Program-made: the position numbers and the translations under genes
Part shown: positions 6,601 to 64,000 of the stretch, in pieces
Position numbering within the stretch: position 1 is the first letter of the stretch
Layout: each line of letters begins with the position of its first letter
The notes under the pieces: model-generated
Database searches by the model: none
Told to the model about the DNA's origin: nothing
What the model saw: the letters and a program-made list of their open reading frames with translations, nothing else
Source of the DNA: Vitis vinifera
Lineage: Eukaryota; Streptophyta; Magnoliopsida; Vitales; Vitaceae
DNA: 64,000 bases
Assembly (NCBI RefSeq): GCF_030704535.1
Contig: NC_081817.1
Coordinates: 26,785,001-26,849,000, forward strand
Direction of reading: 5' to 3'

Positions 6601-6602
6601 TC

Positions 6603-6793: not shown

Positions 6794-13621
<6,828 letters not shown>

Positions 13622-16418: not shown

Positions 16419-16423
16419 GATAT

Positions 16424-17241: not shown

Positions 17242-17246
17242 GATAT

Positions 17247-19246: not shown

Positions 19247-20226
19247 TTCAAAATAACTTAATTATTGAAAAAAAATGAAGAAGACCATTAAGTTTATTAT
19301 TCTAATATGGTAACCAAAATTTTTTTAATCTTAAATAATAAATTTAATTCAAATTAAACTCTTTTATATAGAATAATAAAAACAATATTTTATTAAACAA
19401 GTATTTCAATACACTTACCAAGAGTACTATGATAACAAAAATTAAATATTTCTATAATAACTAATAATTTCTTAAAATTATTATTTGATTAATTAAGCAT
19501 AATAATAACCATAAATGGTTCTAATAACTTTTTATAAGAAGCATAATTTCATTACTTAACTCCCATTATTGTGCAAAATGCAAATATGAAAGGAAACTTG
19601 TGAAGTAGGATAAGCTTGGTATCATTCCTTATTACAGTTTGATTTATTTTCCTTTTTAAAAAAAAATGTATTTGGAGTAAAAATAGAAAATATGAATTAT
19701 TTTAACTTTTTAGTTACACATCTAAATTAGGATAGAAACTTGTGAACTGGAATAAGCTTGGTATCATTCCTTATCAGAGTTTGATTTATTTCCCTTTTTT
19801 TTTTAAAAAAAAAATGTTTTTAGAGTAAAAATAGAAAATATGAATTATTTAAACTTTTTAGTTACACATCTAAATTAGGATATATCAATTAAATAAGATA
19901 AAATTAATTTTTTTCTCTAAAATTTTATTCTATTTTTTCTTTTTTGTTTCTGAACTTTTGTTTGTTTTTATTTCCTGGTATCTTTGAATTTTAAAAATAT
20001 ATATTAAAAAAAAAACTAAAAATTGCATGTGGACAAACCAATAATCCAAGTTCAACCATCCAAAAGAACACATATATTACCAAATAAGTCCGTTCATACG
20101 ATTGGGACATTCAAAGGAAGCATTTTGTTAATACCAATGTTGTATATATATATATATCCAAAACCTCAATTCACTTTTCCTCCTCTCTCACTTTCTGATT
20201 GGAGAGAAAGAAAGTAAGAGAAAACA
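19065..20226 (+). repeat. Duplicated promoter and upstream block of SCPL gene 3
   Basis: The block is similar to about 5,560-6,793 upstream of SCPL gene 2: AAAAAGATTTGAGAATAAGA near the start and GGGACATTCAAAGGAAGCAT near the end occur in both. Within it, about 19,600-19,730 and 19,735-19,880 form a further local duplication sharing ATAAGCTTGGTATCATTCCT. The promoter travelled with the gene during tandem duplication. Confidence 0.75.
20143..20157 (+). promoter_or_regulatory. TATA box of SCPL gene 3
   Basis: An extended TATATATATATATA run lies about 70-85 bases before the ATG at 20,227. It is longer than in gene 2, through TA-repeat expansion. Confidence 0.5.
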
Positions 20227-30161
<9,935 letters not shown>

Positions 30162-30516: not shown

Positions 30517-31206
30517 CTAAGATAGTTTTTGTTTTTTTGGCTTAATTCTAAATAAAATTTATTTTTAACTTAATACTAAATAATTTTTAATAATATTAAG
30601 TATTAAGTTGTTTATTTTTTTAATATTTTATTTCTATTAAGTATTAAGCTGTTTGTTTTTTATATACTAAAAATCAATATCTTAATATTTTAATATATTA
30701 AAAAAATATAATTTAACGTATTTCTAAAAAGTTCAAAATAATAAAATTATTATAATAAATAATTTATCATTATCATTCTTACAAAAAATATTTAATATAT
30801 TTATTTTTTATATAATTAAAATAAAATATTTAAACTTAATAATATGAACACAAATTTAAATAATTAAAAACAAATTAAACAAATTTAAATAATAAATAAT
30901 GGGTTTTACGCGGGTGAGTTTTAATGTGGTGAGATGTTGCCTTCTTCTGTGGCTGCGACGAACACTCTATCACCGCCGCACTGCCACCCAATCTCGAGAC
31001 TGCCTTCCTCACACCAAACGCTGCCGTTGTAGAACAATGGTCGGGTTGAAAATTGTATTTGGGGAGGCTTCAAAAACTGGTTTTTTCTATTCGGCCAAAA
31101 ATTTTAAAAATTCAGTAATAAGTTATTAAAAATTAAAAAAAAAAACAACTTAAATTCTAAAAGCAAATTGCTTTCAGCAAAAAGTCAAAAAAACAAACGC
31201 CACCTA
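30517..31206. mobile_element. Larger MITE-family member with a GC-rich core
   Basis: The right end AAAAAAACAAACGCCACCTAA matches the family terminus. The left end TAAGATAGTTTTTGTTTTTTTGG is a weaker inverse. The interior has ATATTAAGTATTAAG-type words. A GC-rich core (about 30,899-31,090) is foreign in composition and may be captured sequence. It is open on the plus strand for 76 codons but has no recognisable domain. Confidence 0.45.
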
Positions 31207-31974
31207 ATTGTTAATGACTACCAGTCAGCAAATACAGTGTGTGCACGTCAATGGTTTTGAGAAAGTCATGAAATTCTTTCCTGCTGTGGTAGCTACATTT
31301 TCAATCTTCCCAAACCAATCTGAATTCTCCTCAAATTACACGACTTTGGTAAGACCCCAGCCTTGAAGGAGGCTTCCATAGCATCAAAAATTGATTCCTT
31401 CAATCATCATCAAAGAAAGAAAAGAAATAAAGTCTCGTGAGTTAGTAACTAAGAGAATAAATTCTATCTGAAACATGACATACAAATGACATAGCTTTTA
31501 AACACATCTCACCTTAATTCAAAACATGGAACTGCATTTGGTTCTACTGACATGAGTTTGATCACTGTGATGTTCATGATACGATTCCGCAATCTCAAAC
31601 ATATAAAAGGACATAAATTAAGAAGGGAAAGAGCTTGTATGTGATTTCAATTTATGTTGCTATTTTAAATTGAATTTGGAAATAAGCAACCACTGATGCT
31701 TACATAGAATTGTGAGAGACAGCAACAAGAGGAACAAAGTTGGAAGAGAAAATTCCTGCAAAATTGCTGTCAAAAGGTACCTCTTGGTCAATTAAGAGTG
31801 AAGATCTAGCAGGAATTGTGAAGTAATTTGAATTATTGATAAAAAAAAAAAAAAGTATTTGTTTTGAGAAGGGATGGTGTGAAAAGTGAACATGTATACA
31901 GACAGACCTTGACAAGGGAATGGAAGGTTTTGACAGAGCACATAAGCAAATCTCAACTTGTAGGCATTGGCCCA
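31207..31974. other. Spacer between SCPL cluster and NLR region
   Basis: No gene is supported. It lies 3' of the NLR relics, and parts may be their degraded 3' UTR sequence. Confidence 0.35.
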
Positions 31975-32280
31975 TCAAGCCATCTGAACTTTAACAAAGA
32001 AAATCAAGGTCAGAGTTGTAGGATGCCAAAGCAGGGACTCATCACCTGAAAAGGAAACCACATTGGGATATTGATTGCAAGTGCGGAATGCTGCAGGAGA
32101 GATCAAGATGTGGAGGCTCCACTCTGATCGAGGCACCCTGAGGTTCTTGCAATATTCAATCTGTAATGATTTTAGGAAAGCCCTGGTAAACAGTGAAGTG
32201 GTGCAACTTTGGGATGGATGTGGTGATTCACAGCTGAGAGAAGGGCTTGAGAGCGGAGGGAAATTTCCATCCAAAAGGAA
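31975..32280 (-). pseudogene. LRR-domain relic of an NLR gene
   Basis: The minus frame reads LKSLQIEYCKNLRVPRSEWS and later YPNVVSFSGDESLL. These are recognisably the same LRR modules found near the 3' ends of the two NLR genes in this window (LRIEYCQNLQTHLSDWGLHR and CPDVVSFRENDCLPLP in the pseudogene). Homology is limited to about 300 bases and the frame is broken on both sides. It is the remnant of an additional CNL copy just downstream of the split pseudogene. Confidence 0.65.
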
Positions 32281-32843: not shown

Positions 32844-35800
32844 TCAATAAAATATCTCAATGCGGGGGATGTGGGCAATCCTGGCCCAATCTTCTCCTTT
32901 CTCCTTCAAGCATCTTTTTCTTAGAATAGGACATTTCTTGATCTCGAGCCTTGAAAGTGTTGCAGGCAGTCCCTCATCTGGCAGAAAGGAACGGAGCTCG
33001 GGACAATCTGAGATCAATAGCTCTTTAAGAGAGTTGAGGTTTTGGAGACCCAGGAATGCCAGATATTCCAGGTTCTGGAGTTCATTAACGGAAAGCCAGG
33101 TTAGACTCCTCGGAAGAGGTAGGCAGTCATTTTCTCGAAAGGAAACCACATCTGGACATGCACCAGAAATTCGGAATGCTTTAAGAGAGGTAAGCCTATG
33201 CAAACCCCAGTCAGATAGGTGGGTCTGGAGATTCTGGCAATATTCAATCCGAAGTGATGTTAGATTGGGGGCCAAACCTCCTTCTGGCAGGGACACGAGG
33301 CTTGGACAGTAACGAACGTACAGAGTTTGAAGAGATGTGAGATTTTGCATTTGAGGAGGCAGGGACTTAAGATTCTCGCAGTTTTCAATCCAGAGCTCTT
33401 TGAGGTTGGCGTTGGGCAAGCCATTTAGTGGAAAAAACTCGAGTCCAGGGCAATCAAGTATCTCCAGTTTAATGAGATGCGTGAGGCTGTCGAGGCACCC
33501 ATCTAGTGTTGTAAGATTTGGATAATTCCACATCTTCAAACATTCAAGTTCTGCATTATTGCACAACATCTGCCCTGAAATTGGCTCTAAAAGTTCGCAG
33601 TTCCAAATCTCAAGTTGCTTAAGAGAGGGGGGAAAGTTGCCCGGTGGGATGGTTTTGAGAGATGGACATCTATTTTTCTTCAGGACTTCGAGATGCGAAA
33701 TGCTTCTGGTGCCGCTGCCGCTGCCACTGCCGCTGCCACTGCTACTAGCTTGCATTATTGTATCCCGTAGAGCCTTTAAATTTGTACAAACTCCTATCTC
33801 CAGTTGAAGTGTGCTGGGTAACTCATCTGGAAAACAAACCAGAGATGGACAATTCCACACGTGCAACCTTTCCAGGAAATGCAAATTGCCGTTGTATCTT
33901 CCATGTGGTAGCAGCTTCAGACCCTCACAATCATTTAGCACAAGAACTCTTAACGTGGGCGGCAAACCCGTTTCTGGAAATGACACGAGATTTGGGCAGT
34001 GGCCAATTCTCAGCTCTTTAAGAGATTTGAGGCGCTTAAATCCCTTTGGCAGCTCTTCCAGGCTGGCACAATTGTATGTTTCCCAATATTCAAGTTCCAA
34101 AGGGAGCCATTCACCTATCCTTGCAAGCTCTGGAATTGCCTCAATTTGTAACTTGGTGAGTGCGTTGAGTGAGTGGAGGTCAACGTGAAGCCCTCTCCTC
34201 AACCCCATAATATCAGTTACATTTAATTCACGAAGGAAAGGAAACTCGAAACGTAGGAGTGTGTGTGGGCATTCACGAACATCAAGCTTTACAATGGAAG
34301 GAAGGCAAGGATGAATTAATTCACAGTGTAACAAGGGGCATTGCGATATCTTCAGTTCAACAAGGCTAGGAAATAGTGTTTGAACTTCTGCATCACTATT
34401 GCTAAGAGGAAACCAAAATTCCCAATTTGGCATATTCCCAAATGTTAGAGATTCCAAGGATGGAAAAGGCTTCCCCATAAAACGCATCATCCACTCTTCC
34501 TACTTTATACATGCTTGAGATGTGTAAGACTTTAAGTGAGGTTAGTCGCCCACGAGGTGGTAATGTTCTGCGATTTCAGCAATCACTGAGACTTAGTTGC
34601 ACCATTGATGAAAATGAGGGATCTCCTATCCAAGAAGGGAATTTGAATCCCCAGTACCATTGAACGGTGAGCTTTTTCAGATTTTGATGAGGTTCCAGCA
34701 TCTCAGTTAATGTTTCATTTTGTGCATCCACATAACCCAATTCCACTGTTAAGTCCTCAATCTTGTGTCTATTCTTTAAATTTGCATCCATCACCTCTTT
34801 CATATTCACCATATTCTGCAACCCCAAAATGGACAGCTTCCCTAGAAGTTGAGACAAATTCCCCAAATCCCGTATTCTCAACCCACTGCCTTTACTAACA
34901 ATAAACTTTGACAATGTAAGGATCCTAGTTTACATATTTGGGAAGGCATCTCCTGTAACTCATCAGTATAACTTGAAAAGACTCTTGCATCCACGTAATA
35001 TTAATGTTTGTAAATTATAAAGATAGCAAACTGATTCAGGTAGCCATTTAATTAATGTGTATGAAAAATTAAGATACCTTAAATGCTTCAAATCACCAAG
35101 CGAATTTGGTAGCTCAGATATCCGATGACCACTCAAAGATAGCACCCATAAGCATCTCATTTTCATTAAAAGATCATGCAACACCTTAGTGGATATTTAG
35201 CAACCCGAATTCATATCCGATGCATGAATTGGTAATGCAAGAAATGTTCCCAAATACCTAGCTTTACGAACGGGTTCAAAATTTTCAAAGATTTCATACA
35301 TACGGGTGAATGATGAATGACGAACCTTTTCAGAAATGGCATGCCTCAAATTTTTCTCAGGCTGATCCTCTGAGTGGAAGCATATTTCAGCAGCAACAGA
35401 TTGAGCCAAGTCATTGAGGAGATCATGCATGGTGAACTTTGATACATTGCTACTTGATGGCTGGAAAAGTGATCTTGATAACAACTCACAAAAGTATTCA
35501 CAACCTAAATCTTCCATTTGCTTATTTCCAGTAGGTTGTTCTGCCATCCATATAAGGAGCAACTCATCCTTATCAAATTCATAACCCTTGGGAAATAATG
35601 ACCAATAACTGAAACACTGCTTCAAGTGGGGAGGAAGATGGTGATAGCCAAGCTTTAGAGCTGGAAGAATGTCACACTCCTTGTTTGGCAAATCCCAGAT
35701 GTTGCTGCCTAATATCTCTGCCCATTCCTCGCAATTTGATTTAGTGCGCAACAGACCCCCTAGGGCCTTTGCTGCCAAAGGCAAACCTTTACACTTTCTT

Positions 35801-36402
35801 ACAATTTTCTCACCAATTACTCGCAGGTGTGGATGGTTATCGAAGTTTCTTGTTCCCAATGCATGGTGGGTAAGTATAGGTAGGCAATCATCATCGGGCA
35901 ACTCTTGCAAAGCCTCCAATTATTGATGTAACCCATTGACTACGAGTTGTTACAATAAGTTTACTGCCTCTTGCACCTGCTCTTAAAGGAGAGCGAAAGA
36001 GATCCCATGTAGCATAGTCCTCTTCCCAAACATCATCTAACACCAGCAGAAATTTCTTCCCGGCCAAGTTCTCTTTGAGTGATACTTGAAGTAAATTTAG
36101 ATCATCCACATCCCGAAAACTAGAAGCGATAGACTGCAGAATTGTTTTGGTTACTCTCACAACATCAAAATCATTGGTCACAAAAATCCAAACTCTCGGA
36201 TCAAAATGCTTTTCACCTCACCATCATTGAATGCCAACTGAGCGAGAGCAGTCTTGCCAACACCTGGCATACCGAGTATAGGAATAACACAGATTTCATT
36301 TTCACTTGCTTCATCATTACGCAACTGGTTAAGAATTGCCCTTTTATCGTCGCCCCTGCCTAAACACGAGGGGCATCTACCAGAGAAGTGGTTGGCAGTA
36401 CT
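32844..36402 (-). pseudogene. CC-NBS-LRR pseudogene, 3' part (NB-ARC and LRR)
   Basis: Minus-strand NLR of the CNL (RPP13/R1-like) class. In order: GMPGVGKT P-loop (about 36,260), KKFLLVLDDVW kinase-2 (about 36,050), GSKLIVTTRSQ, CKGLPLAAKALGG (about 35,780), CFSYWSLFPKGYEF, an FTMHDLLNDLAQ MHD motif (about 35,420), then LRRs to the stop at 32,844. Breaks are numerous. There are frameshifts before and after the P-loop (about 36,350 and 36,205) and near 35,920, a deletion or stop around 35,190-34,915, an in-frame TGA near 34,575, and a frameshift near 34,485. The longest open piece (32,844-34,490) is pure LRR and includes a Ser-Gly run from a short repeat (about 33,700-33,750). The coiled-coil part lies at 45,728-46,207, beyond an inserted retrotransposon. 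It cannot give a full NLR. Fragments might still be transcribed. Confidence 0.9.
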
Positions 36403-36407
36403 GTTTC
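36403..36407. repeat. Target-site duplication GTTTC, left
   Basis: GTTTC immediately precedes the TG terminus of the retrotransposon complex and recurs at 45,728-45,732 directly after its CA terminus. Removing the complex and one copy restores an in-frame NLR reading across the junction. Confidence 0.9.
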
Positions 36408-37122
36408 TGTAATCATCGGGTATTTTATGTCATGTTAACATTTCTATTTTGAAAAATCTTATTTTGAGTGATGGTTGAAAAGTAAAAAAGAAAAGTAATT
36501 GGAGAACACGTGTTAATTTTGTGCCATGTCAGCCTTAGGGTAGTTAAGTTCTTAGGATTTTAGAAATTGAAAATTTCTGGAAAAGAAAAACGAAAACGAA
36601 AATGAAAAGTAAATTAATTAAAATTAATTAAGAAAAAATTAAATTAAATTATTTTTTTGTTGGTGTTTAATAAATTAATTTGTGTTGTTAAAAAAAGAAA
36701 AAAATGAAATTGGAAATGGAAAATAACCAAATAAAAATAAAGAAAAGAAAAAAAAAAAGATTAATTGGAGCCTTTGGATTTGGGCCATGGGCAATGGCTG
36801 TGAGTGGATGAAAGTAAGCTTTTAAAAACCAAAAAAAAAAAATTGATTTGGGCCTTTGGATGAAATGGGGTTTTAAAAGAAAAGGGAATGGATTTGGGCT
36901 TTGGATATTGGGCCATGGACAGTGGGCTAGTGGTTAAATGAATTAAAAAATATATATATATATCAACTCGTCTAATTGACCAACACAATAAATCAGATTT
37001 CACCAATCCAAAATTAACAAGTGTTCTCCAATTACTTTTCTTTTTGACTTTTCAACCATCACTCAAAATAAGACTTTTCAAAATAGAAATTCTAACGTGG
37101 CATAAAATACCCGGTCATTACA
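36408..37122. repeat. Inverted LTR-end pair at the left of the complex
   Basis: 36,408 onward reads plus-strand LTR start (TGTAATCATCGGGTATTTTA). From 37,122 leftward the minus strand reads TGTAATGACCGGGTATTTTA. The two match closely for about 110 bases (both include GAGTGATGGTTGAAAAGT and TAATTGGAGAACAC), forming a long inverted repeat. The middle is AT-rich LTR-like DNA with a (TA)n at about 36,950-36,963. Confidence 0.8.
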
Positions 37123-37135
37123 TCCTACCCCTTAA
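37123..37135 (-). other. Polypurine tract of the minus-strand gypsy element
   Basis: On the minus strand TTAAGGGGTAGGA sits directly before the LTR start TGTAATGACC, the standard position for plus-strand DNA priming in LTR retrotransposons. Confidence 0.65.
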
Positions 37136-37154
37136 AGAAATTTCGTCCCGAAAT

Positions 37155-40100
37155 TTAAACGAGCTTACCTTGCGGATAGTGTTGTCTCATTTCTTCTTCA
37201 GGTTCCCAAGTGACTTCTTCTATCCCATGGTGTTGCCACCACACTTTGACTGCAGGAATCACCTTGTTTCTGAACTTATGTTCTCCAACCTCCAGAATCC
37301 GTAAAGGTTCTTCCACATAAGAAGTGTCTTAACTAATTTGAACATCTTGCAAGTCCACTACCTAAGTTGGATTTGGAGTACCTTAGCATCGACACATGGA
37401 AAACATCATGCACAAGGGACAATTGTTGAGGCAAAATTAACTTGTATGCCACTGGCCCAACTCTCTTATCAATCTGAAATGGTCCCACGAATCTAGGGGC
37501 TAACTTCCCATTTTTCCCAAATCGAAATATGCCTCTTCGAGGGGACACTTTTACAATCCCCTTCCTCAAACTCCAAGGGCCTTCTCATTTGGTCTGTATA
37601 GCTTTTCTGTCTATCTTGGGCAGTCTTAAGATTTTCCTTGATGAGTTGTATCTTTTCTGTAGTCTCTTAAACAATCTCAGGTCCCAACAAACGTCTCTCA
37701 CCTACCTTTATCCAACACAAGAGCAATCTACAAGGTCTCTCATAAAGTGCTTCATAAGGTGTCATGCCAATACTAGATTGGTAACTGTTGTTATAAGCAA
37801 ACTCTGCTAAAGGTAAGTAATCTGCCTAATTTCCTCCAAAATCCAAAACACAAGCCCTTAACATGTCTTCTAAGATCTGGATCACTCTTTCTGATTAACC
37901 ATCTGTTTGAGGGTGAAAGGCGGTGCTAAACTTCAATTGGGTGCCCAAAGCCCTTTGTAAACTATACCAAAACTGAGAAGTAAACTTAAGGTCCCTGTCA
38001 AACACTATAGATAGAGGAATCCCATGCAATCTCACAACCTCTTGTATATACAACTTAGCCAAAGAGTTCATGGGATCAGTAGTTTTCATGGATAGAAAAT
38101 GAGCTGACTTACTAAGACGGTCCACAATCACCCAAACTCCATTTTTCTTGCTTCTAGTTCTTGGCAACCCTATCACAAAGTCCATAGTGATATGATCCCA
38201 CTTCCACTCAGGTATAGCTAAAGGTTGCAACAACCCTGCAGGCCTCAGGTGTTTAGCCTTCACTTGCTGACAAATCTGACAGTTGGCTACAAACTGAGCA
38301 ATATCTCTCTTCATCCCACGCCACCAAAACTGTCTCTTTAAGTCTTGATACATCTTGGTATTCCTAGGGTGGATGGTATACTTCGCCCTATGAGCATCTG
38401 CTAAAATTTCATTTCTCAGCTCCACATCTTTTGGCACACACAATCTCCCTTTAAACCTCACACTCCTATCTTCATACATAGACCAATTTTCACCTACTTC
38501 ATCTGCTACCAACTAGGCTTTAACCTTTTCTAAAAACTCATCACGAACTTGGGCCTCCACTATTCTTTGGATAACCATTGGTCTAGTCGATATACTGTAC
38601 AAGCATGGACCATGTCCTTCCCAACTAAGACATAACTCAAAATCCTCAATAACTGCATGCATCTCAAACTCTCTCAACCCCAAGCTAGACAACTGACCAT
38701 AACTCTTCCTACTTAAGGCATCTGCTACAACATTTGCCTTCCCAGGATGGTAATGAAGAACAAAATCATAATCTTCCAATGTCTCCATCCATCTCCTCTG
38801 CTTAGAGTTCAAATCCTTTTGAGTGAAAATGTATTTCAAACTCTTGTGATCAGAGTACACCTCAAACTTCTCTCCATACAAATAGTGTCTCCAAGTCTTT
38901 AAGGCAAACACAATTGCTGCAAGCTCCAAATCATGTGTTGGATAATTCCGCTCATGTTGCTTTAATTGTCTTGAGGCATAAGCTACCACCTTGCCTTACT
39001 GCATTAGCACACACCCTAGCCCCACTGTAGAAGCATCACAATAAACCGTAAACAACTCTCCACTAATAGGAGTAGTTAACACTGGAGTAGTGGTCAATTT
39101 CCTCTTCAATTCCTGGAAAGCATTCTCACACTCCTCATTCCATTCAAACTTTAACCCTTTTCTAGTCAACCGAGTCATTGGTGCTGCAATCTTAGAGAAG
39201 TTTCCCACAAACCTCCTATAATATCCAACCAACCCCAAGAAACTTCTAACCTCAAATACATTAGTAGGCCTTTGCCACTCATGAACAGCTTCCACCTTGG
39301 AATGGTCTACTGCTATTCCTGCCTCAGAAACCACATGGCCTAAGAAATTCACTTCAGTAAGCCAAAACTCACTTTTGTCCAACTTCCCATACAACTGATG
39401 TCTTCTTAAAGTTTTAAGAATGGTCACCAAATGTTGCTTATGCTCCTCCAAACTTTTGGAGTAAATCAAAATATCATCCAAAAAAACAATCACAAACTGA
39501 TCCAAGTAAGCACGAAATACTATGTTCATTAAATCCATGAAAGCAGCGAGGACATTAGTTAACCCAAAAGGCATGACTAGAAATTCATAATGCCCATATC
39601 TCGTTCTAAAAGCGATTTTAGGAACATCTTCTTCCCTAACTCTCAATTGATGATACCCCTCAAGTCAATCTTACTAAAATACTTTGCACCCTTCAACTAA
39701 TCAAACAAGTCATCGATTCTTGGAAGATGATACTTGTTCTTCACAGTAACTCTATTCAACTTCCTATAGTCAATACACAACCTTAGTGTGCCATCCTTCT
39801 TATTCACAAACAACATCGGGGCTCCCCATGGCGACGTACTCAGACAAATAAAACCCTTACTCAACAATTCATCTAACTGAGTTTTCAATTCCTTCAACTC
39901 AAGAGGGGCCATCCTATAAGGGGATACTAAAATAGGATTAGTTCCTGGGTATACTTCAGTAAAGAAATCAAATTCTCTATGTGGTGGTAAACCTGGTAAC
40001 TCATCTGGGAATACATCCTGAAACTTCCTCACCACTAGAATTTATGTAATGCCCTTTTGGGCTTTCTCCTTACCACGAAGGCAAGCTAGGAATTGATCCA

Positions 40101-40561
40101 TTCCTCAACACATACTGATAACACGGATCGGATTGTGAAAAAGGCAAACTAAGACACTTCCCTCCAACAAAGCAAACCTTAAAACCATCTAGTAGACAAA
40201 ATATTATTCTGCGGCGATGACAATCAATAAGCACTCTATACACTGTCAACCAATCCATTCCCAAGATAACATCATACCCAGTCATATCCAAAATCCTCAA
40301 ATCCACATTAAGTGCTCTATCCGCCAAGGTAATAACGCACCTCTTGCATATTCTATTAACTCTAGAATTCGTACCCATAGGGGATTCGATAAGTAATAAA
40401 TTCTCTACCGTTTTCGATTTCAACCCCAATGCATTAGCACAAGATGTAGAAATGAAAGAATAAGTTGCACCAGTATCAAACAAAAAATGCACCCAAGTAC
40501 TATATACCAAAATCATACCTCCCACCAAAAGGACGTCCTCCTCTGGCTCTGTTGGGGTCAA
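37155..40561 (-). pseudogene. Ty3/gypsy pol remnant: protease, RT, RNase H, integrase, chromodomain-like end
   Basis: Read on the minus strand from the right. Aspartic protease with FLFDTGATYSFIS (40,070-40,561). Reverse transcriptase with [20 protein letters not shown] (39,697-40,035) and [10 protein letters not shown] (38,996-39,646). RNase H with YCDAS and [14 protein letters not shown] (38,513-39,060). Integrase with a CQICQQ zinc-binding part, MDFVIGLP and DRDLKF core residues (37,895-38,512). A GPF...GPVAYKL module (37,333-37,569). Last is a chromodomain-like tail with WWQHHGIEEVTWEPEEEM ending at a stop near 37,155. This order and tail fit a chromovirus of the Tekay/Del or a related clade. 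At least five stops or frameshifts separate the pieces, so no polyprotein can be made. Confidence 0.88.
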
Positions 40562-40631
40562 GGCAAAAACTCTTCCAGCTACCTGTCTTCCCCTACCTCT
40601 AGCATTCGACCCCTAAGAAGAACGGGTCTAA

Positions 40632-41764
40632 CTAATCATGGTAGTTGTCCTGGTTCCCTACGCTGCTGGGGGTAATTGTGGCATCTGGTAGTAAGGCAAT
40701 TGAAACTGAGGGGGTTGGAAAGGCACTACTGACCGTTGCTGAGAATTCCCTGAGACTGAGGTCGAGCCTGTTGTACACCCCGCAATGGGCAAGCCCTCCA
40801 TAAGTGGTCTCCCGCTCCACAACCATAACATTCTCTATTAACAACCGCCCTCTGAGCACTCTGCCCACCTCCTGCATAGAACAGGATATCCTCTTAGATT
40901 GTTGAGTCTTCTACCTCTGTTGTGGCCCCTGGGAACTTTCCCTCATTCTTTGTTTCCCTTTTCTGTCTCCTTTTTGCTCTCGAATTTGGTTGGTTTCCTC
41001 AATGTCCTGCTCCACCAACAAAGCCCTCTTAACCAACTCAGAATAGTCCCTTATTGCCAATGGGATTAATCTATTCCTAATAGCAGGCCTCAACCCCTGC
41101 TGGAACCTTCTAGCATTTTCTCATTCCTCATTGATCATCCCCAAAGCGAATCTAGACAACTCCGAAAAGCGTGACTCATACTCCAGCACTGACATGGTTC
41201 CCTGGATAAGGTGCTCAAACTCCATTCTCTTGGCGTGCTTAGCCACCTCTCCCAAATACTTGCCTAGGAAGATTCTCTCAAATTCCTCCGAGGTCATAAC
41301 CTCAGTGTCATACACTCTTTCCATCGATTCCCACGAGAAATCAGCTTTATCAACAAGCATCTATGCTGCCAGACTTACCCTCCTTTCCTCAGGTATGTCC
41401 AACCCCACTAGAATTCTTCTCATCCTCCATAACCAATGCTCAACTACTTCTACACTGGGCTCTCCATTAAAATATGGAGGCTGCATCACCATGAATCTCT
41501 TCATCACTTCCATTTGGCTCATTACTGGCCTCTTACTGCGGCTCCTCCTATGTGAGTGGTCTGAATCCTCATGCCCTAGGTACCTCCTGATCTCCTAGAG
41601 CCCTGACCTCTCATCAACTGGACAATCTCTCTCAACTCCTTTCTTACTTCTCGGAGTTTTTCTCTTAGTTCTTTTCTTACCGACTCCAACTCCTCATTTC
41701 TCTTAGATCTTCCTCTTCTGGTCCATTCCGCCATTTCAAATTTAACAATCCCTAATTCAACCAC
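40632..41764 (-). pseudogene. Ty3/gypsy gag remnant
   Basis: Minus-strand pieces upstream of the protease read like plant gypsy gag: YESRFSELSRFALGM (41,121-41,360), GLRPAIRNRLIPLAIRDYSE with LVEQDIEE (40,911-41,110), and a degraded zinc-knuckle area (40,632-40,877). A charged Arg/Glu-rich stretch at 41,576-41,764 is the probable N-terminal part. Frames are broken repeatedly. Confidence 0.7.
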
Positions 41765-42061
41765 ATTACCAAGGTGAGCAAAATAAATTCACATGTACCC
41801 ATTTAACAACTTCAACAACTATCAAAACTTTCACTTTCCTACAATCACAATACATAATTCAACATAATTAACATCATCATGTTTCTTATTATCATCAACA
41901 AGCACCATCACAAGGCTTTTCAAACATCAAGAATCAACAATTAAATAATTTATTTAATAATCAACTCATTAACTACCACATACAAAAAATCATAACATTA
42001 CATAACATTACAATACACACAACACCCACAAACATTGACCCCAAGGTATTATTGCAACCTT

Positions 42062-42074
42062 GGCTTTGATACCA
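42062..42074 (-). other. Primer binding site, initiator tRNA-Met type
   Basis: The minus strand reads TGGTATCAAAGCC four bases after the LTR end GGGTCGTGACA (42,078). It differs by one base from the usual TGGTATCAGAGC complementary to initiator tRNA-Met, the common primer of plant gypsy elements. It fixes the transcription direction of the interior as minus. Confidence 0.8.
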
Positions 42075-42077
42075 CGC

Positions 42078-42150
42078 TGTCACGACCCAAATTCTCGGCG
42101 ACCCAAAATTTGGCCCGTGACCCCAAGTCAAAGGTTTGACCCTAAGGGTT
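42078..42150 (-). repeat. Truncated 5' LTR end of the minus-strand element
   Basis: The plus strand starts TGTCACGACCCAAATT. Its complement matches the last 70 or so bases of the plus-oriented LTR ending at 45,727 (shared GGTCACGGGCCAAATTTTGG). Similarity stops near 42,150, so most of this LTR is missing. Confidence 0.75.
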
Positions 42151-43357
42151 ACTACTTTAATAATGTTTATGTGGTTAATAGTTATTGAATTAAAAAACGA
42201 CATGTATTTTGTATTAATTATGAAGTACGTTTGTATAGGATGTGAAGAGTTGCCTAGGTTGAAGAAAGATGTGATTAGATTCGAGATAGAGTTGGAGATT
42301 GAGTTTCTTTCAGACCCTGAGTGGTCAACTGGCAGGCCAACCAGTTTACCAACTAGAGACTGTGAGGCCTTATTTTTGTTTTATCTCATTTATCACATCT
42401 CTCTTGCCTTTTCATTGTGAAATTTAGTGTGATTGTTTGTATCATATGCATCTTACTGGGAGATATGATGTGTTCTTGAATGACAAAAATAAATAAATAA
42501 ATTTTTTTTAAAAAATGTTGGAGGTGATGTAGGGAAATTAATTGATTAAGAGTACTGAAGAAATATAAGACATTCAAACTAAGGGGTTCTAATAGGAAAT
42601 AAATAAAATTCAAGTGACGTTACAATTATTGAGACTTTTGGGACTGCATAAATGAAATATTTAAAAATATTAGTGCATTTGAGTTATAAGATATAAGACA
42701 CTAGTAAATTGTTAGTCTATCAAATCATGAAAAACAAAAAGAAAAAAAGTAAACTCTATAATTATTAGTGATAAATCTTATCTAGAGACCTCTCTTGTTG
42801 GTAGATTTAGTAGGAAACATGTATCTTGCTAAAGGGAAAAAAAAAATGATGACAATGAGTAGAGGAAACTATAAACTTGTTTATGGGAGTTAAGATAATA
42901 ATTTACTAGACATAGTTAATAGTAGATTCAATCAAATTGATTTCAATGTATGTCGAATAATAATAGTAATCATAAAAGGCTTTGAGAAAGAGAAGACTCT
43001 TAATTACTGTGTGAGATAAGATTAGAAAGTTCAAACTGAGGTAAACAAAAACAATAATGAAAGAAATCAAAGACTAATAAATGCAAAGTATAATTTCTTA
43101 ATTGTGGAAGTGAGGAATTGTGATCATGGTATGAACTTAATGACAAAACATGCACACGTTCAAAAATTCACTTAGAAATAGATTAGCTTGAAGAGATAAA
43201 ATAAGATAAAGAGTGTTATACATAAAAATATTTGAGGTGTACGAAGGAAAATGCAATATTATAGGATTACAAAGAAGAAGGAAAATGCAATATTATAGGA
43301 TTACAAAGAATAATCGCAATGAATAAAATCCTAACAAGAAAATTTAGGAGGAGAGAA
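42151..43357. other. Unassigned DNA inside the retrotransposon complex
   Basis: It matches neither LTR copy and no retroelement domain. The composition is AT-rich. A 33-34 bp unit is tandemly duplicated at about 43,242-43,309 (GAAGGAAAATGCAATATTAT occurs twice). It could be a further nested insertion or a diverged internal region. Confidence 0.4.
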
Positions 43358-45727
43358 TGTAATACCCGGGTTTTTTTTAAGGACGCGTCAGATTTTAGGA
43401 GCATAAAGTCTTTCATAAAATTGTGGGTCAAATGGTCAAAAAGAGAGGTGAAGATCCACGTGTTAGTATCTAATTGGAAGAGATTTTGGAAAAGTTGGTG
43501 AAAAGTCAATAGTTTGAAATATTTGCCAAGTCAGACGTAAAGAGTAGAAATTTTAGAAATTAAATTTAGACTTAGAGAAAAATTTAGCCATCAAATAATT
43601 GAGATTAGGTTTTGAAAATTTGAATATTAAGTACGTTACGGGAATTAATTTAATTATTATTAGGTAATTATAAAAAAAAAATGTTTGGAGAACACATGTT
43701 AATTCTGGATTGGTAAAATTCAATTTATTGTGTTGGTCAATTAGGCGAGTTGAAATTTTGTGCCACGTCAGTCTTATGGTAGAAAATTTCTTAGGATTTT
43801 AGAAATTGAAAATTTCCAGAAACGAAAAATAAAAACGAAAATGAAAAGTGAATTAATTAAAATTAATTAAGTAAAAATTAAATTAAATTGATTATCAATA
43901 AAATTGAGAAAAATTAAAATTTTGGGTTAGTGTTTTATAAATTAATTGGTATGTTATAAAAAAAAAAAGAATTTGGAAATGAAAAATAATCAAATGAAAA
44001 TAAATAAAAGAAAAAATAATAATAATAAATCAAAAGTTGGATAGTGGGTCTGGGTTGTTAAAACAAAGGAAATTAGTTCATTGGGCTTTTGAACTTTGGG
44101 TTGTGGGCTTGAGTGGCTGGTGTTTACAAAAAAAAAGGGAAAATGGGAGGATTTGAAAAGTGGCAAAAAGGGGGAAAGGGATAGTTGTGGTGTTGTGGAG
44201 ATTTTTTCTTTCATCGGAACTTTGGCTAGCTATTTGGACGGCCAAACGACCTCCGTTTCGGCTCAAATTTTGAGGAGGTGCTCTACTTGACGAGAGGAAC
44301 AATCCTACGATGGCTGATCATATTTTTAACGATTGAATTCTTAGATCTGTGGTAGGAGAACCTAACCCTAAACCTTAAATTTAATGCATCTTTCCTTTCA
44401 AGAAAATTGTAAATCTTGTCATTATGAGTTAAGTAGGTAATATTGGTGTTGTATGATTTTTTCCGGATTATTTGGAATTTGTTTGGAATTTTTGTACTTT
44501 TGGGAATTTGCTTTTAGTTGATAAATAATTGTTTTGAGTTGTTAAAAATTATTGGAAGTGTTGGAAAATTTCGAAATTAGGATTTAATTTTAAATCTAGT
44601 GATATGTGAATTTTTGGGCATTGTTGGAATATTTTTCGGAATTTTTATGGTGGAAAATTAGTTATTTTCGAATATTGGAAATTATTAGAATTGTTGAAAA
44701 ATTTTGAAAGTGTGGTATAATTTCAAGTTTATTGATATGCAAATTTTTGAAAATTTGTTGGGATATTTTCGAAAGTTTTAATGTGGAAAATTTATTTTAT
44801 TGGATTATTGGGGAATGTTGAAACTGTTGAAATTATTGAAATTATTGAGAAACTTTGGAATTGTGGCATTCATTTGCATCATGGTTGTGTGAAGAAATTA
44901 TGAAAATTGTGAAAAGTGTATGAAATGGAAAAAAAAAAATAGTGATGAAAAGTAAAAGCCCATGTGAGGCGAATTAAGAAAGGAGAGAGATCCCTAGGGT
45001 GAAAGACCCAAAAGTTTACCTCGGGAAGACTCCGAATGGGGAGTGTATTTAGGTGCGGACGCGTATCCTTTGGTGAAAGCCCGAGAACAATAGTGCATTG
45101 TATGACTGTGTGTTACTCGTTCATGTGTATTCATTTAATTGTTGAATGTTGTGGAATTGTGTATAATATTAGATATTAAACTATGTGGTTTGATTAATAC
45201 TGTTGAAATGTTCTTTTTGTGTTCTTTGGAACTTAGTAATCCCTTTAACCCATTGGGTGTTAGGCACCCTACTAAGCAATGTGGAAATGCTCACCCCTTC
45301 ATTTTTACATCTTTTTAAATGTAGATATCACTCCTGAAGATCCACAGGTGAGGCAGGGAGGACTTTAGGATGCTCCTGGAGTGGCCCGTGATATTTTTTT
45401 TTATTGTGTTTGTGGTTTTGGGATTTGTTTTAGTAACTATGAATTATGGATTTGTAATGAGACCTTATTTTGATTAAGTTGCTTAATTGTGAACTTTTAT
45501 TTTTGGACTATAATGAATATTTATTAAACCTTGTTGTTTTGAATAGTGTTTAGGATATTGTAGTTTATGAGATCTCTAGTGGGACGTATGTGTAAAAAAA
45601 AAATAAAAAAAAAATTCAAAGTGTTTTGGTTGACTGCTAGTGTGGAATAGGAGGAACCCTTATGGTCAAATCTTTTACCTGAGGTCACGGGCCAAATTTT
45701 GGGTCACCCGGAATTTGGGTCGTGACA
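43358..45727 (+). mobile_element. Plus-oriented LTR (about 2.4 kb) at the right of the complex
   Basis: It begins TGTAATACCCGGG and ends GGGTCGTGACA. The last 70 bases match the inverse at 42,078-42,150, and an internal phrase (TTGTGTTGGTCAATTAG and GGATTTTAGAAATTGAAAAT) recurs at the left side of the complex. Its first 330 bases differ from the other LTR start, so it may belong to a sister subfamily or be recombinant. There is no 5-bp duplication around 43,358 itself; the duplication pairs its right end with 36,403-36,407. Confidence 0.7.
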
Positions 45728-46207
45728 GTTTCTCTTGCATTGGAGCTTCCTCCAGCATTCCTTAGCAATCTTAGACCTCCTATTTGCTTTGCAATCTCTT
45801 GCACTCTGTTGGTGATCTTCTCTATCTTAGATCCCATCCTAACACTAAACATCAAAGCGGTTGGATTCAAAGAAATAGGAAAACAAGCAGGGATGGGAAC
45901 TCATATAGCCGTACTACTTGTGGTAGCTTCAAATCCATCGGCTATCAGCTTCCGTCACAAGGCTTCGGTGGCGATCGCATCCAGTAAGTCATCCATGTCA
46001 TAAGCCAAATCTCTAAGATCCTCCAGCCACAATTTCATAGCTGACTCCGTTACTTGTTTCTCCTCTGCATCATTGAGCACTGCCTGAACTATTAGCAACG
46101 TTTTCTTCAGGTTCCTCTCAGCCAACAAAGTCGAAGAATTCAGTTGAAGCCAACTTGTTAAACATTACGTTTATGAATGCAGTGAGAAAGATCTCTCCCA
46201 CAGCCAT
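45728..46207 (-). pseudogene. CC-NBS-LRR pseudogene, 5' part (coiled-coil domain)
   Basis: The minus strand from ATG at 46,207 begins MAVGEIFLTAFINVMFNKLA, the typical start of the Rx-N-like coiled coil of CNL proteins. After a frameshift near 46,125 the frame continues with AVLNDAEEKQVTESAMKLWL and LRDLAYDMDDLLD, equivalent to the EDVID region. TGA codons near 45,960 and 45,910 stand where family members have Arg, consistent with CGA to TGA decay. It ends NARET at the insertion. The in-frame continuation (VLPTTSLVDAPRV) is at 36,402 on the far side of the retrotransposon. Together with 32,844-36,402 it made one NLR. Confidence 0.88.
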
Positions 46208-48095: not shown

Positions 48096-48102
48096 AAAGA
48101 AC

Positions 48103-48382
48103 TAGGTGGTGTTTGTTTTTTTGGTTTTTTGCTGAAAACCATTTAGTTTTAGAATTTAGGTTGTTTGTTTTTTTACTTTTTCATGACTTATTATAAACTT
48201 TTTACTAAATAGAAAAAGCCAAAATATGTGGCTTTTTCTAAATAGAAAAAATAATACAATGGTTTTTTTACTTTTTAATACTTAATAGAAATAAAATATT
48301 ACAAAAACAAACAACCTAATATTTAATACTATTAAGTATTAAGGTTCTATTTAGAATTAAGTAAAAAAACAAACACCACCTA
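48103..48382. mobile_element. MITE (280 bp) with good terminal inverted repeats
   Basis: TAGGTGGTGTTTGTTTTTTT at the left is mirrored by AAAAAACAAACACCACCTA at the right. The interior contains AAATAGAAAAAGCC and TACTATTAAGTATTAAG, shared with the other family members in this window. The gene 3 parent sequence at the aligned point lacks it, so it inserted after the SCPL fragment moved here. No convincing target duplication was found. Confidence 0.75.
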
Positions 48383-50493: not shown

Positions 50494-53400
50494 TTAATCA
50501 TACATTCGAATGCAGGGAATGTGGCCAATATCACGCCAGTCTTCTCCATTTTTTGAGTACCTTCGGCTTAGAAGTGGACAGTTCCTGATGAAAAGCATTG
50601 AAACTGTAGAGGGCAGCCCTTCGCTTGGCAGAAATGAGTGGAGCTTAAGGCACTCTGTGAATCTTAGCTCTTTAAGAGAGGTGAGGTTCTGAAGACCAAG
50701 GGAGACAAGGGATTCCAGATTCTGGATTCTGTCTATGGAAAGATGTGTGAGAGTTGTAGGAAGAAGTGGGAAGCCCTGTTTGGCGGAGAATAAGACCACA
50801 TCCGGGAATAGGCCACCAATTCTGAGTCCGGTAAGAGAGGTGAGTCGGTGGAGGTTCCACTCAGACAGGGGTGACTTGAGATTCTGGCAATCTTCAATCT
50901 GAAGTGATGTGAGGCTGGGACTCAAATCGCCCTCCTGAAAGGACTTCAGACCTGGACACCTCCGTATACATAAACTTTGAATGGATGAGAGGCTCTGCAT
51001 GAGATGAGATTGGAACTCAAAATTCACGCAGTTTCCAATGTGAAGGTTTTTCAGGTAGGGAGTGAGACACCGAGGCAGAGTTTTCAGGTTTGGATAATTC
51101 CAAAAGTCCAAACATTCAAGGGAAGTATTGTTCTGCAGCATCTTCTCTGAAATTCCATCTAACTGCGTGCAATCCCATATCTCAAGCCGCTTAAGAGTAG
51201 ACGGCAACTTGCCTGCTGGAAAGGACCTGAGAGATGAACATCTGTAGAGCTTCAAGACTTGAAGACGGCAAGTGTTGCTGGGGTTGATTGAAGCATCCCG
51301 CATCATTCCCTTTGCCAGAGACTCCAGATTAACACAATGTTCAATCTCCAGTTGCTGAAGTGAGTTGCGAACATCTCCTGTAGGAAAGCAGGCGAGTGAT
51401 GGACAGTTCCGTATCTCCAAGTGTTCAAGGAGACAAGAGTTGCTGCTGTTCCCATATGTCAATATTCCATCAGGTAGCCACTTCAAACTCTCACAACAGT
51501 TGATGCTAAGGCTTCGTAGCTCCGGTGGGAAAATCCCTGGAAGTGACACAAGTTTTGGGCACTGCTCAATTCTCATATCTGTGAGAGATACGAGTCTCTG
51601 CAATTCATCTGGCAGCTTCTCCAAGCAAGCACAGTCATATATCTCCAAATGTTGGAGGATCTCCAAGAACTGCTTCATGTCCTCTCGACAAGTGAGACTT
51701 GGAATTTCCTGAATGTTGAATGTGTTGATGAGGGAGCTGAGATCAACCCCATCTCGTGTAGACAAGTGAGCCCGGCAACATCCTGTTAAACTTAATTTGT
51801 CAACAGATGCTAGTCTTCGAAGTGGAATCGCCAATTCTGCACATTCACATACAGCAAGCTCTACAAGGGAAGGTGGATGACAAGGTAGCTTGATCAATTT
51901 TGGGCAGTTGATTAATGTCAGCTGACGAAGGCAAGGAAATGCCCCAACTTCCTCAACCATGTAAGGAAATGACCAGTTTTTCCATTCTGGCATGTCCTCA
52001 AATATTAGAGTCTCCAAGGATGAAAAGGGCCTGACAGAAGGAGAAATCTCCCCATAAAATTCAGCACCAACCCTCTTCAAACCACCCATTCCGGCGATGC
52101 ACAAGCTCTTGAGTGATGATAATCGCCCGAGAGATGATAACGATGTGCAGTTTTTGCAATGGTTTAGATTCAGATCCACCATGTTTGAGAATGAAGAACT
52201 TCCTATCCAACTTGGGAATTTTGATCCACCATAAAATGAGACCATGAGCTTTTTCAGATTCGTGTGAGGTTCTAGTAAGTCTAGGACATGCACTTCATCC
52301 CTTTCATTTCTTGAATCACTGAAATCACTCACCCACTCCATCAGTAACTCTTCAAGTCCTTCCGTATCCCTCAGAATGGCATCACATGAAGGCCATATAT
52401 GCCCCGCATAATGCAACCCTAGAATGGAAAGCTTCCCTCGAAGTTGCGACAAATTCCTCAGCGCTGTTATCCTTAAACTGCTGTCCTTGCTCACAATAAA
52501 CTTCGGTAAACTTCGCAAATCTATTAAGTTGCCTATTTGTGGAGGCATTTTCTGTAATTGATCTGTGTCCGTGATGTCGAGATGCCGAAGATTAGTTAAG
52601 TTCCCAATACTCCGAGGTAACTCAGTAAGCCTCTTGCAGCCATGTAATAGCAATGTTTGTAAATGAAAAAGAGTACCCACTGAGTCAGGTAACCCTTTGA
52701 TTGCAGTCAGGGACAAATTAAGATACCGCAGATACATGGAATTACCAATTGAATGTGGTAGCTCACTTATCTGACAACCCCTCAAAGAGAGAATCCTTAA
52801 GCGTTTGAATTTTGCCAACAATTTGTCAAGCTCCCTAGTAGTTGAGTTGCAAACCGCTTCATCATCTTCTGGTGCAGCAGTTGGTAATACTGCTAAGAAG
52901 GTTCGTAAAAAATTTACTTCTTTGAAGGTTTCAAATTGTTTTAACATAACTTCAACCCGACACGCGAATGAAAAATGATGAGTTCCTTCAGAAATGACTT
53001 GGTGGTGATTCCACCCATCCTCCAAGATGCAGTACATATCTCCACCAGAGGCTCGAGCTAAATCACAAATAAGGTCACGCATCACAAATTTTGACTCGTT
53101 ACTAGATTGTTGGAAAAAGGACCTTGAGCGCAATTCATGAAAATAATCAACACCTAAGTCTTCCATTTGCCGATTTCCTTCTGGTTGCTGAATTAAACCT
53201 TCAGCCATCCATAAGAAGACTAACTCATTTACCTCAAATTCGTAGTCCATGGGAAATAGTGCACAATAAGCAAAACATCTCTTCAAATGGAAAGGAAGAT
53301 AAGAATAAGTTAACCTTAAATGTGGAAGAATGTAATCATCTGCCAAAGTCCACATTTCGCTATTCAATACCGTTTCCCATTGATCGAATGGTTCAGACTG

Positions 53401-54282
53401 TAGAAGTTGACCAAGCACCTTTGCAGCCAAGGGCAAGCCTTTACATTTATATGCGATTTCCTTGGCAACTTCCAAATTTGGATGTTGATCCATCTTTCGA
53501 TTTTTAAATGCATGTTTAGCAAACAGTGACCAACAATCGTCTTCAGATAAAACTCCTAGGCGAAAGAGGTGAACAGTTCTTCCCATTATCATTGCAACAG
53601 CCTCACTGCGTGTTGTTATAATGATTTTACTTCCCTTTGCTCCTGCCTCGAAAGGAGACCGTAATATATCCCATTTGCTGTACTCCTCATTCCACACATC
53701 GTCCAAAACTAGCAAAAACTTTTTTCCAGCTAATGCATCTCGCAATTTAACTTGAACTTGTCCAAAGTCTTGCAAATCATTGTTGGTCCAAGAGACTGAG
53801 TAAAGAATGGACATTGTTATCCTGGCCACATCAAACTCATCAGAAACACAGACCCATACCCTTAGGTCAAAATGCTCTTGCACTCTCTTATCATTGTAAA
53901 CCAATTGTGCAAGTGTGGTCTTCCCAGCCCCACCCATACCGACTATGGAAATCACATCGACTTTGCTTTCACTCCCTTGGTAACTGAGCAGGAATTCAAC
54001 AATTTCTTCTTTTTCCTTATCCTTGCTATAAACTATGGTTTCACCTACCAAAGGTGTAGATGGAGTGACTGTTGATCCTTCCAAAGAAGAAACTTTTCCT
54101 TCTACACCCTTTTCCAATCCAAGTACATCTATTTGAGCTGAAATATCTTTCAAATGGATGATGATTTTCCTTAGGGAAAACTGTGTTTTGGCCCGCCCAT
54201 TTGGGCCTAATAGCTTTTTCATAACCCAACTTTCCATAACCCAAAATATGTGTACTGTTGCCCACAAAAATATCCCTTTCAT
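50494..54282 (-). CDS. NBS-LRR disease-resistance-like protein lacking the coiled coil (1,262 aa)
   Basis: A single uninterrupted minus-strand frame. NB-ARC: GMGGAGKT P-loop at residues 115-122, LLVLDDVW kinase-2 at 190-197, GSKIIITTR at 217-225, KGLPLA at 281-286, CFAYCALFP at 336-344. The position of the MHD motif reads MRD (401-403). From about residue 490 to the end it is leucine-rich repeats. NLRs of this class sense pathogen effectors inside the cell and trigger defence. CNL homology begins only around residue 36. The first 35 residues (GIFLWATVHIFWVMESWVMK) look like read-through of unrelated DNA, and no coiled-coil exon is seen upstream, so the true start could be a later Met or lie in an unseen exon. 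It may be a truncated receptor, a helper-dependent form, or a young pseudogene. A frame this long argues for recent selection. Confidence 0.85.
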   Translation of the reverse strand: MKGIFLWATVHIFWVMESWVMKKLLGPNGRAKTQFSLRKIIIHLKDISAQIDVLGLEKGVEGKVSSLEGSTVTPSTPLVGETIVYSKDKEKEEIVEFLLSYQGSESKVDVISIVGMGGAGKTTLAQLVYNDKRVQEHFDLRVWVCVSDEFDVARITMSILYSVSWTNNDLQDFGQVQVKLRDALAGKKFLLVLDDVWNEEYSKWDILRSPFEAGAKGSKIIITTRSEAVAMIMGRTVHLFRLGVLSEDDCWSLFAKHAFKNRKMDQHPNLEVAKEIAYKCKGLPLAAKVLGQLLQSEPFDQWETVLNSEMWTLADDYILPHLRLTYSYLPFHLKRCFAYCALFPMDYEFEVNELVFLWMAEGLIQQPEGNRQMEDLGVDYFHELRSRSFFQQSSNESKFVMRDLICDLARASGGDMYCILEDGWNHHQVISEGTHHFSFACRVEVMLKQFETFKEVNFLRTFLAVLPTAAPEDDEAVCNSTTRELDKLLAKFKRLRILSLRGCQISELPHSIGNSMYLRYLNLSLTAIKGLPDSVGTLFHLQTLLLHGCKRLTELPRSIGNLTNLRHLDITDTDQLQKMPPQIGNLIDLRSLPKFIVSKDSSLRITALRNLSQLRGKLSILGLHYAGHIWPSCDAILRDTEGLEELLMEWVSDFSDSRNERDEVHVLDLLEPHTNLKKLMVSFYGGSKFPSWIGSSSFSNMVDLNLNHCKNCTSLSSLGRLSSLKSLCIAGMGGLKRVGAEFYGEISPSVRPFSSLETLIFEDMPEWKNWSFPYMVEEVGAFPCLRQLTLINCPKLIKLPCHPPSLVELAVCECAELAIPLRRLASVDKLSLTGCCRAHLSTRDGVDLSSLINTFNIQEIPSLTCREDMKQFLEILQHLEIYDCACLEKLPDELQRLVSLTDMRIEQCPKLVSLPGIFPPELRSLSINCCESLKWLPDGILTYGNSSNSCLLEHLEIRNCPSLACFPTGDVRNSLQQLEIEHCVNLESLAKGMMRDASINPSNTCRLQVLKLYRCSSLRSFPAGKLPSTLKRLEIWDCTQLDGISEKMLQNNTSLECLDFWNYPNLKTLPRCLTPYLKNLHIGNCVNFEFQSHLMQSLSSIQSLCIRRCPGLKSFQEGDLSPSLTSLQIEDCQNLKSPLSEWNLHRLTSLTGLRIGGLFPDVVLFSAKQGFPLLPTTLTHLSIDRIQNLESLVSLGLQNLTSLKELRFTECLKLHSFLPSEGLPSTVSMLFIRNCPLLSRRYSKNGEDWRDIGHIPCIRMYD

Positions 54283-55095
54283 GCACTATCCACTGTTTTA
54301 TAATTTCATTTCCAAAAATACCCCTCCAGCCTTCCATGTCAGCAGCCATCTCCCTCTCCATGTCACCATGGGAAGTTGTGCTTTTAAGCACCCATGGTTA
54401 TCATACCCATACAAGCCTATATCATCTTGAACAACCTGAAGATTTCTTGGTGGAGAGGACTACATGCTGCAGGTGGCCTCATATGCTTGGATTTGGGTGT
54501 CTTGGTGAGAAGGAAATAACCCTAATTGATTCCTGATTGAAATGGGTCAGATCTAGGGGCAACGATCTTCAATGGCGGGTTCACCCCTTAACATGCCTGC
54601 ACAAAGCATTTGAAGGTATGTTGGTTTTGTTGGTGAAATCTAACTTTTCTCCCCCCTTCTTGAGTTGTACTTCAATTATAAATTTGGAAAAACTAACAAA
54701 GAGAGATTCTAAGAATGAATTAAAAAAAATGAAAAAGAATGACAAAAAGTTGCATACAAACTCAGTGAATGGAAGCTAAATGGTACTTGGGTGATAGGAG
54801 TTATAGTGTGGCTGTGAAAAAATGTCGAAGAGGTTAAATTTGAGGAAAATGTAGGGGTTGTCGTGAAAGCTCAAAACTAGAGCATCTGTAGTGATAAAGG
54901 TTCTTGGGACATAAGGACTTCAATTTCCTTTATTTATTTTTTTAATTTCTCCTTGGATCTAGCATAAATTTAGTGCTAGAAGTTATCCTTAATATCTGTA
55001 ATACAAAAACTGATGTTTTTAAAAAATAAAAAACAGCCACTTTTCCAGTTGTAACATTCCTCCTTTGATGCTAAAAGCAAGAGAACAAATGATAC
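54283..55095. other. Region upstream of the truncated NLR
   Basis: Where the coiled-coil domain would be expected there is unrelated DNA with no recognisable domain on either strand. The junction with NLR homology is near 54,177. Any promoter of the NLR must lie here. Confidence 0.5.
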
Positions 55096-55228
55096 CACAC
55101 TGGGTCCAAATGCTGCCAACCCCTGAATTGCCCCATAATGTTGAGGCAATGCTTTTATTGGGTCCAAGAAAGCATGGAGCAGAGTCCTTGTCACATGTGG
55201 CTGGATGTTATGATAAACATGCTCGTAT
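55096..55228 (-). pseudogene. TAF6: Isolated exon of TAF6 (TFIID subunit 6)
   Basis: The minus strand has a 133-nt open exon with splice signals on both sides (acceptor TTTTCCAG before it, donor GTATCA after). It encodes YEHVYHNIQPHV, then TRTLLHAFLDPIKALPQHYG and AIQGLAAFGPSV. This matches the conserved HEAT-like region of plant TAF6, a histone-fold subunit of TFIID that supports RNA polymerase II initiation. The exons that should flank it are not seen within 500 bases either side, so it is most likely a captured or duplicated gene fragment. A real TAF6 gene with very long introns is less likely. Family assignment rests on memory of the conserved motif. Confidence 0.7.
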
Positions 55229-63962: not shown

Positions 63963-64000
63963 TCTCTCCCTACAAGAAGGGATGATAGTGTAAAATGCAA

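Follow-up and report, generated by a model that had tools for sequence, protein, structure and literature searches.

In a 64,000-nucleotide (nt) stretch of the Vitis vinifera genome (RefSeq assembly GCF_030704535.1, contig NC_081817.1, positions 26785001 to 26849000; here, the window, whose own coordinates are used unless a contig is named), a minus-strand gene of the coiled-coil (CC), NB-ARC, leucine-rich repeat (LRR) type lies in two pieces. This gene, a CNL of the nucleotide-binding LRR (NLR) family, spans 46207-32844 and is interrupted by 36408-45727. This raises the question of what came between its CC and NB-ARC domains, and by what steps. The original prediction, made from the sequence letters, was that a retrotransposon had split the gene there and left an intact target-site duplication (TSD). 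Our analysis supports a split between these two domains by insertion of a long terminal repeat (LTR) retrotransposon with a 5-nt TSD. The insert itself did not prove to be one plain retrotransposon; it is a composite of pieces in two orientations.

The insertion point in the CC-to-NB-ARC linker

The insert is 9,320 bp long, begins with TG, ends with CA, and has GTTTC on either side, exactly where the original prediction had placed it. TG...CA ends with a duplication of 4 to 6 nt characterize LTR retrotransposon insertion, and both are found here. Among pairs of ends within about 15 nt of the boundaries, three share at least 5 nt, all of them adjacent registers of one match, and one of the three gives TG...CA together with a 5-nt repeat. 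When the flanks are joined with a single GTTTC, the coding strand reads in frame, NARET-VLPTTSLVDAPRV, within one 71-codon open piece, and the translation over the join runs ...GGSSNARETVLPTTSLVDAPRV; the expected restoration of the frame at NARET was thus borne out. The outer ends of the insert and the GTTTC copies belong to one insertion. That two unrelated insertions instead supplied the outer ends, sharing GTTTC by chance and giving a coincidental frame, is an idea to which we attach very little credence. It is favored by the different types of the left and right LTR starts, but the probability that 5-mers drawn at random from the window agree is only 0.002 per pair (200,000 draws), and the join restores the frame, length, and sequence of the linker as well.

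The domains that define a CNL are present and in order: the CC domain (Rx_N, PF18052) matches the piece 45955-46164 well above its cutoff, and NB-ARC, winged helix, and LRR follow. An intact relative, P0018, is colinear with the locus by tblastn, with residues 4-33 and 39-167 on the CC side of the insert and 179-1329 on the other. No single open frame that could make a CNL protein is found. The frame is unbroken only over the 71-codon piece around the linker; the CC piece is frameshifted and carries two stops, and the frame changes again immediately past APRV. The frame changes are placed near 46112, at this APRV site (about 36360), and near 36214, near 35915-35910, and near 34472. In-frame stops occupy 45955-45957, 45901-45903, 35197-35199, and 34576-34578, and the stretch around 34930-34966 is damaged as well. 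Bearing the insertion and no fewer than five frameshifts and four stops, the CNL gene is therefore a pseudogene. The predicted base-level view of the ancestral structure accordingly holds for the insertion point and the linker, and not for the rest of the gene, which is broken in many other places. The insertion may have killed the gene or may have struck an already dead copy. The LRR lesions are not common to all copies, since the 425-amino-acid (aa) protein P0126, 97 to 98% identical to two of the LRR pieces, is open where the window copy is broken. Two gene models with no NB-ARC listed, V. piasezkii AAG906_021849 and V. rotundifolia PVL29_017568, resemble the LRR of the pseudogene at 65% and 72%, respectively.

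Proteins similar to the pseudogene support the joined reading. We fetched 288 proteins, fragments included, that had been chosen by similarity to P0018, to the LRR piece, and to a neighboring NLR in the window (50494-54285). The 71-codon joined piece is matched by 145 of them, and 136 align through the joint, 66 of these with no net length difference within 8 aa. At least 1,100 aa are present in 164 of the 288, of which 129 span the joint.

The same arrangement is seen in genomic DNA. The searched assembly comprises 21 contigs (495.6 Mb), with the window at C13:26785001-26849000, and a search with the CC piece (40 of 42 candidates scored) listed 41 matches, 31 of them on C13. We infer from its number that this contig is chromosome 13; the concentration of matches there agrees with the description of chromosome 13, in the available part of PMC2814809, as the grapevine chromosome richest in nucleotide-binding site (NBS) genes. 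Among the matches listed there is no second close copy of the CC piece, the best other match being 70% identical over about 270 nt. The best seven of the 40 other listed matches, which are paralogues and not alleles, were cut out, and CC and NB-ARC are contiguous at all seven (at L003 in two overlapping pieces further downstream). The alignment of the joined sequence with CNL paralogues that the original prediction had proposed as a check came out in its favor: DNA alignments run through the joint at six of the seven loci, with net gaps of -3, 0, -1, +3, +3, and -3 nt, the ungapped case being L003 (45/60 nt identical over the joint). At the seventh, L008, the DNA aligns on the NB-ARC side only. 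Nor was an NB-ARC found directly beside a CC elsewhere in the locus, as P0018 finds a single CC in the window by tblastn (46201-45709).

We also weighed whether the CC piece and the NB-ARC-LRR piece might derive from two genes brought together by rearrangement. Domain loss does happen in this cluster, as the neighboring NLR has no CC. The two pieces, however, lie on the same strand in the right order, are colinear with one intact relative, and join exactly, and it is the 3' end of the neighboring NLR, not its 5' end, that faces the CC piece. An origin from two genes is, in our judgment, barely credible.

Two further features were noted around the pseudogene. Past its downstream end lies a minus-strand LRR-like fragment (31984-32175), 38 to 50% identical to LRR parts of five relatives. 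Two inverted-repeat pairs, at 30581-31212 and 48097-48341 (108 nt, 83%; 67 nt, 90%), flank the pseudogene and are possibly two copies of one small repeat.

Make-up of the 9.3-kb insert

A plain single retrotransposon would have two like LTRs around one body in the same orientation, which is not what the insert contains. This simple reading was rejected because the body lies on the strand opposite to both terminal LTRs (here L1 and L4; Table 1) and because the starts of these LTRs are unlike. The body has the order gag, protease (PR), reverse transcriptase (RT), RNase H, integrase (INT) on the minus strand which, with its Ty3-like RT, places it in Ty3/Gypsy. Pfam matches reach 36.5 bits for gag, 131.3 for protease, 75.1 for RT, and 104 for RNase H. 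The integrase zinc-binding domain passes its cutoff (67.4 bits) and is accompanied by an SH3-like match (79.9 bits), with the integrase core (rve) below its cutoff (22.8 against 32.6 bits). A chromodomain at the integrase C terminus marks the chromovirus clade; the body has a weak chromodomain match (PF00385), which at 18.5 bits falls short of the cutoff of 25.1. The solved structures nearest to the body in sequence are 4ol8 (RT/RNase H) and 7q5b (Ty3-G Gag-Pol).

A purine tract adjoins 37122 and TGGTATCA adjoins 42077; the latter resembles a primer-binding site (PBS), and the purine tracts of the insert resemble polypurine tracts (PPTs). Searches of viral contigs for relatives of the RT piece gave none, with two pattern matches only, and in the 200 kb of contig that adjoin the window on its right none of nine insert pieces has a match. 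Dating the insertion by LTR divergence was abandoned, as no LTR pair is clearly the 5' and 3' pair of one insertion and the four comparisons (Kimura two-parameter distances of 0.08 to 0.16) may mix elements.

Table 1. Parts of the split CNL pseudogene and of its insert, in window coordinates.
Feature	Position	Strand	Evidence
LRR part of CNL pseudogene: 551-aa open piece 32844-34499, broken pieces 34500-35196	32844..35196	-	Open frames, profile search, comparison with P0018
NB-ARC and winged-helix part, in several frames	35197..36402	-	Pfam NB-ARC 72.5 and 40.1 bits, WH_DRP 77.1 bits; colinear with P0018 from residue 179
TSD GTTTC, NB-ARC side	36403..36407	.	Sequence letters
L1, truncated plus-strand LTR (its first 552 nt) with type A start	36408..36959	+	92% identity to L2 in inverted orientation (114 nt); matched by genomic copies as an LTR start
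L2, first 163 nt of 3' LTR of minus-strand element, meets L1 at (AT)n run	36960..37122	-	89-93% identity to eight LTR starts among the 10 other copies cut out; junction letters
Internal region of minus-strand Ty3-type element, several open frames	37123..42077	-	gag, PR, RT, RNase H, INT, SH3-like, and weak chromodomain pieces
L3, last ~79 nt of 5' LTR of minus-strand element	42078..42156	-	LTR comparisons; ~9 nt common with next piece (42148-42156)
Internal remnant of plus-strand type B element, PPT-like purine-rich end	42157..43359	+	91% and 96% to C15 stretches over parts; tract
L4, complete plus-strand LTR, type B start, tends to type A after ~44.0-44.2 kb	43360..45727	+	Comparisons with genomic copies
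TSD GTTTC, CC side	45728..45732	.	Sequence letters
CC (Rx_N) part of CNL pseudogene	45728..46207	-	Pfam Rx_N 63.3 bits (cutoff 27.7), open reading frame ends, tblastn with P0018

Two LTR types and the history of the insert

How did a body come to lie reversed between two unlike LTRs? We consider it probable that one plus-strand insertion made the GTTTC duplication, that related elements then nested within it, and that deletion left the present mosaic. The TG...CA ends, the 5-nt repeat, and the in-frame join that matches relatives show that a plus-strand Ty3-type LTR retrotransposon entered the CC-to-NB-ARC linker of the minus-strand CNL gene, duplicating GTTTC. Related elements, one of them in the opposite orientation, would then have inserted into this first element, and illegitimate recombination, perhaps with exchange between like-oriented LTRs, may have removed most of the original element to leave the 9.3-kb mosaic. 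A second element is the likelier source of the reversed body, and a third is present in part.

Genomic copies distinguish two types of LTR start. Among the 40 of 291 candidates scored in a search with 36408-37122, the window alone matches this head-to-head arrangement from end to end (1 to 715); elsewhere, the L1 part and the L2 part are matched by one and the same LTR start. Ten other places, one of which yielded two of the 11 loci, were cut out. The L2-type start (type A) is seen at eight of them and the L4-type start (type B) at one, on C15, and one is without the first ~80 nt. In a search with L4 (40 of 627 candidates scored), C15:6198661-6199353 is the sole match outside the window from L4 position 1, and many others start at 307-313. 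The piece 42157-43359 is 96% identical in part to C15:6194029-6194628 and 91% identical to C15:3172117-3173219. This piece and the start of L4 are alike in resembling a single C15 region and not the type A copies. The same piece also matches five successive stretches, about 680 bp apart, at C18:28374444-28377889, where it looks as if it may have turned into a tandem repeat.

L4 itself leans to type B at its left and to type A at its right. Over L4 positions 313-2150, with the C5 copy as type A and the C15 copy as type B, 199 sites are informative; A/B agreements are 11/30 to the left of the best cut and 92/66 to its right (Fisher 4e-4 at this cut; 3 of 300 permutations as strong). When the C3 copy stands for type A, there are 195 sites and 2 of 300 permutations as strong, and the counts become 4 and 3 of 300 once a badly aligned stretch is excluded. 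A version including sites beyond 2150 (Fisher 5e-7, 0/300) was set aside, as the C15 copy is not LTR there. The change of type would fit recombination between like-oriented LTRs. At the junction of L3 with the next piece, LTR-side matches stop at query positions 91-97 and several matches on the other side start at 88-90, leaving about 9 nt in common; this and the (AT)n junction of L1 with L2 would fit illegitimate recombination.

An alternative is that there was a single outer plus-strand element whose middle was later inverted between its LTRs, a type B piece being added at one breakpoint. The order of pieces partly fits such an inversion, and the divergence of L1 from L2 (9/114 mismatches) is indistinguishable from that of L3 from L4 (10/79; Fisher p 0.33). 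L1 and L2 are identical at 105 of the first 114 nt, roughly the closeness that any copy shows to either of them; the eight type A copies agree with L2 at 103-108 and with L1 at 100-105. However, L2 is nearer to two other copies, C5 (108/114) and L041 (106), than to L1, and the C3 copy is as close to L1 (105) as L2 is. L3 with its 18 adjoining internal bases matches 26 listed places at 92 to 95% identity (91-97 nt), and the end of L4 at 87% (79 nt); LTR-only matches to L3 in the same listing are at 95, 89, 85, and 85%. The L2 and L3 comparisons lean slightly and weakly against inversion, as the copies were picked for similarity and the 97 nt include 18 conserved internal bases. Inversion also does not account for the type B piece or for the roughly 80 nt by which L2 and L4 overlap, and we think it an unlikely course of events. 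Less likely again, and by our estimate quite improbable, is that the mosaic was preformed, a chimeric type A/type B complementary DNA (cDNA) with unlike terminal LTRs having integrated once with a single GTTTC duplication. If true, this would make the insert the product of a complex one-step retrotransposition and not of nesting and decay in place.

Several points weigh against the nested history that we prefer. The terminal LTRs are no normal pair, the left being type A and truncated and the right having a type B start, and the TSD is only 5 nt long. Both LTRs of the nested element are truncated, so no TSD could be sought for it, and the sequence argues weakly for the minus-strand body as a separate element rather than an inverted outer one. 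Type B is represented by a single reference copy, on C15, that may itself be mosaic, and the permutation test on L4 takes its sites to be independent of one another. No empty-site allele was seen, the loci compared being paralogues.

The surrounding cluster and related loci

The neighboring NLR is a minus-strand open frame of 1,263 codons with NB-ARC, winged helix, and LRR and no Rx_N/CC match. It is 99% identical over 95% to the V. vinifera protein P0001, a model likewise without a listed Rx_N. Its NB-ARC is the only other one found in the window, and tblastn with P0018 gives no CC match at its 5' side; the CC regions of P0018 and P0010 have no match in 54193-64000. A tandem array of a 203-bp unit lies at 56819-63195 (31.4 copies, 98% matches, a 22-bp subrepeat inside the units). 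On the plus strand of 3829-23749, all five open pieces tested match serine carboxypeptidase (Peptidase_S10), apparently as a tandem gene cluster.

The insert shares with Ty3-type, chromovirus-like elements the TG...CA ends, the 5-nt TSD, the PBS- and PPT-like tracts, and the gag-PR-RT-RNaseH-INT order, but differs in having no matching LTR pair, a body inverted with respect to the outer LTRs, and a chromodomain match below cutoff. Grapevine NBS-LRR genes disrupted by Gypsy insertions, one of them in the N terminus, are described in the accessible portion of PMC2814809. There, CC-NBS-LRR genes of chromosome 13 in and around REN1 are likewise broken by small frameshift indels or transposable element insertion; the window insertion differs from these, as far as that text describes them, in its place in the CC-to-NB-ARC linker, its readable TSD, and its mosaic insert. 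A gene of that text, NBS360, may or may not be the window pseudogene. The CC-NB-LRR cluster RGA08 of banana, in the portion of PMC3017797 at hand, is similar in its pseudogenes and its mostly disrupted LTR-retrotransposon remnants, and unlike the window locus in that the LTR element there inserted in an intron of a neighboring gene and did not split a linker. In the rose Rdr1 cluster, truncated fragments of TNL genes occur throughout, some attached to retroelements, according to the part of PMC3503547 available.

The event is thus of a known, ordinary kind, to which the window locus adds a case whose insertion point is unusually readable. It leaves the understanding of NLRs and of retrotransposons unchanged. 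What it provides is an insertion within a resistance-gene cluster whose point is known exactly and can serve as a presence/absence marker, an instance of a split pseudogene with annotation that could be corrected, and, in the mosaic insert, a small record of the nesting and decay of plant LTR elements.

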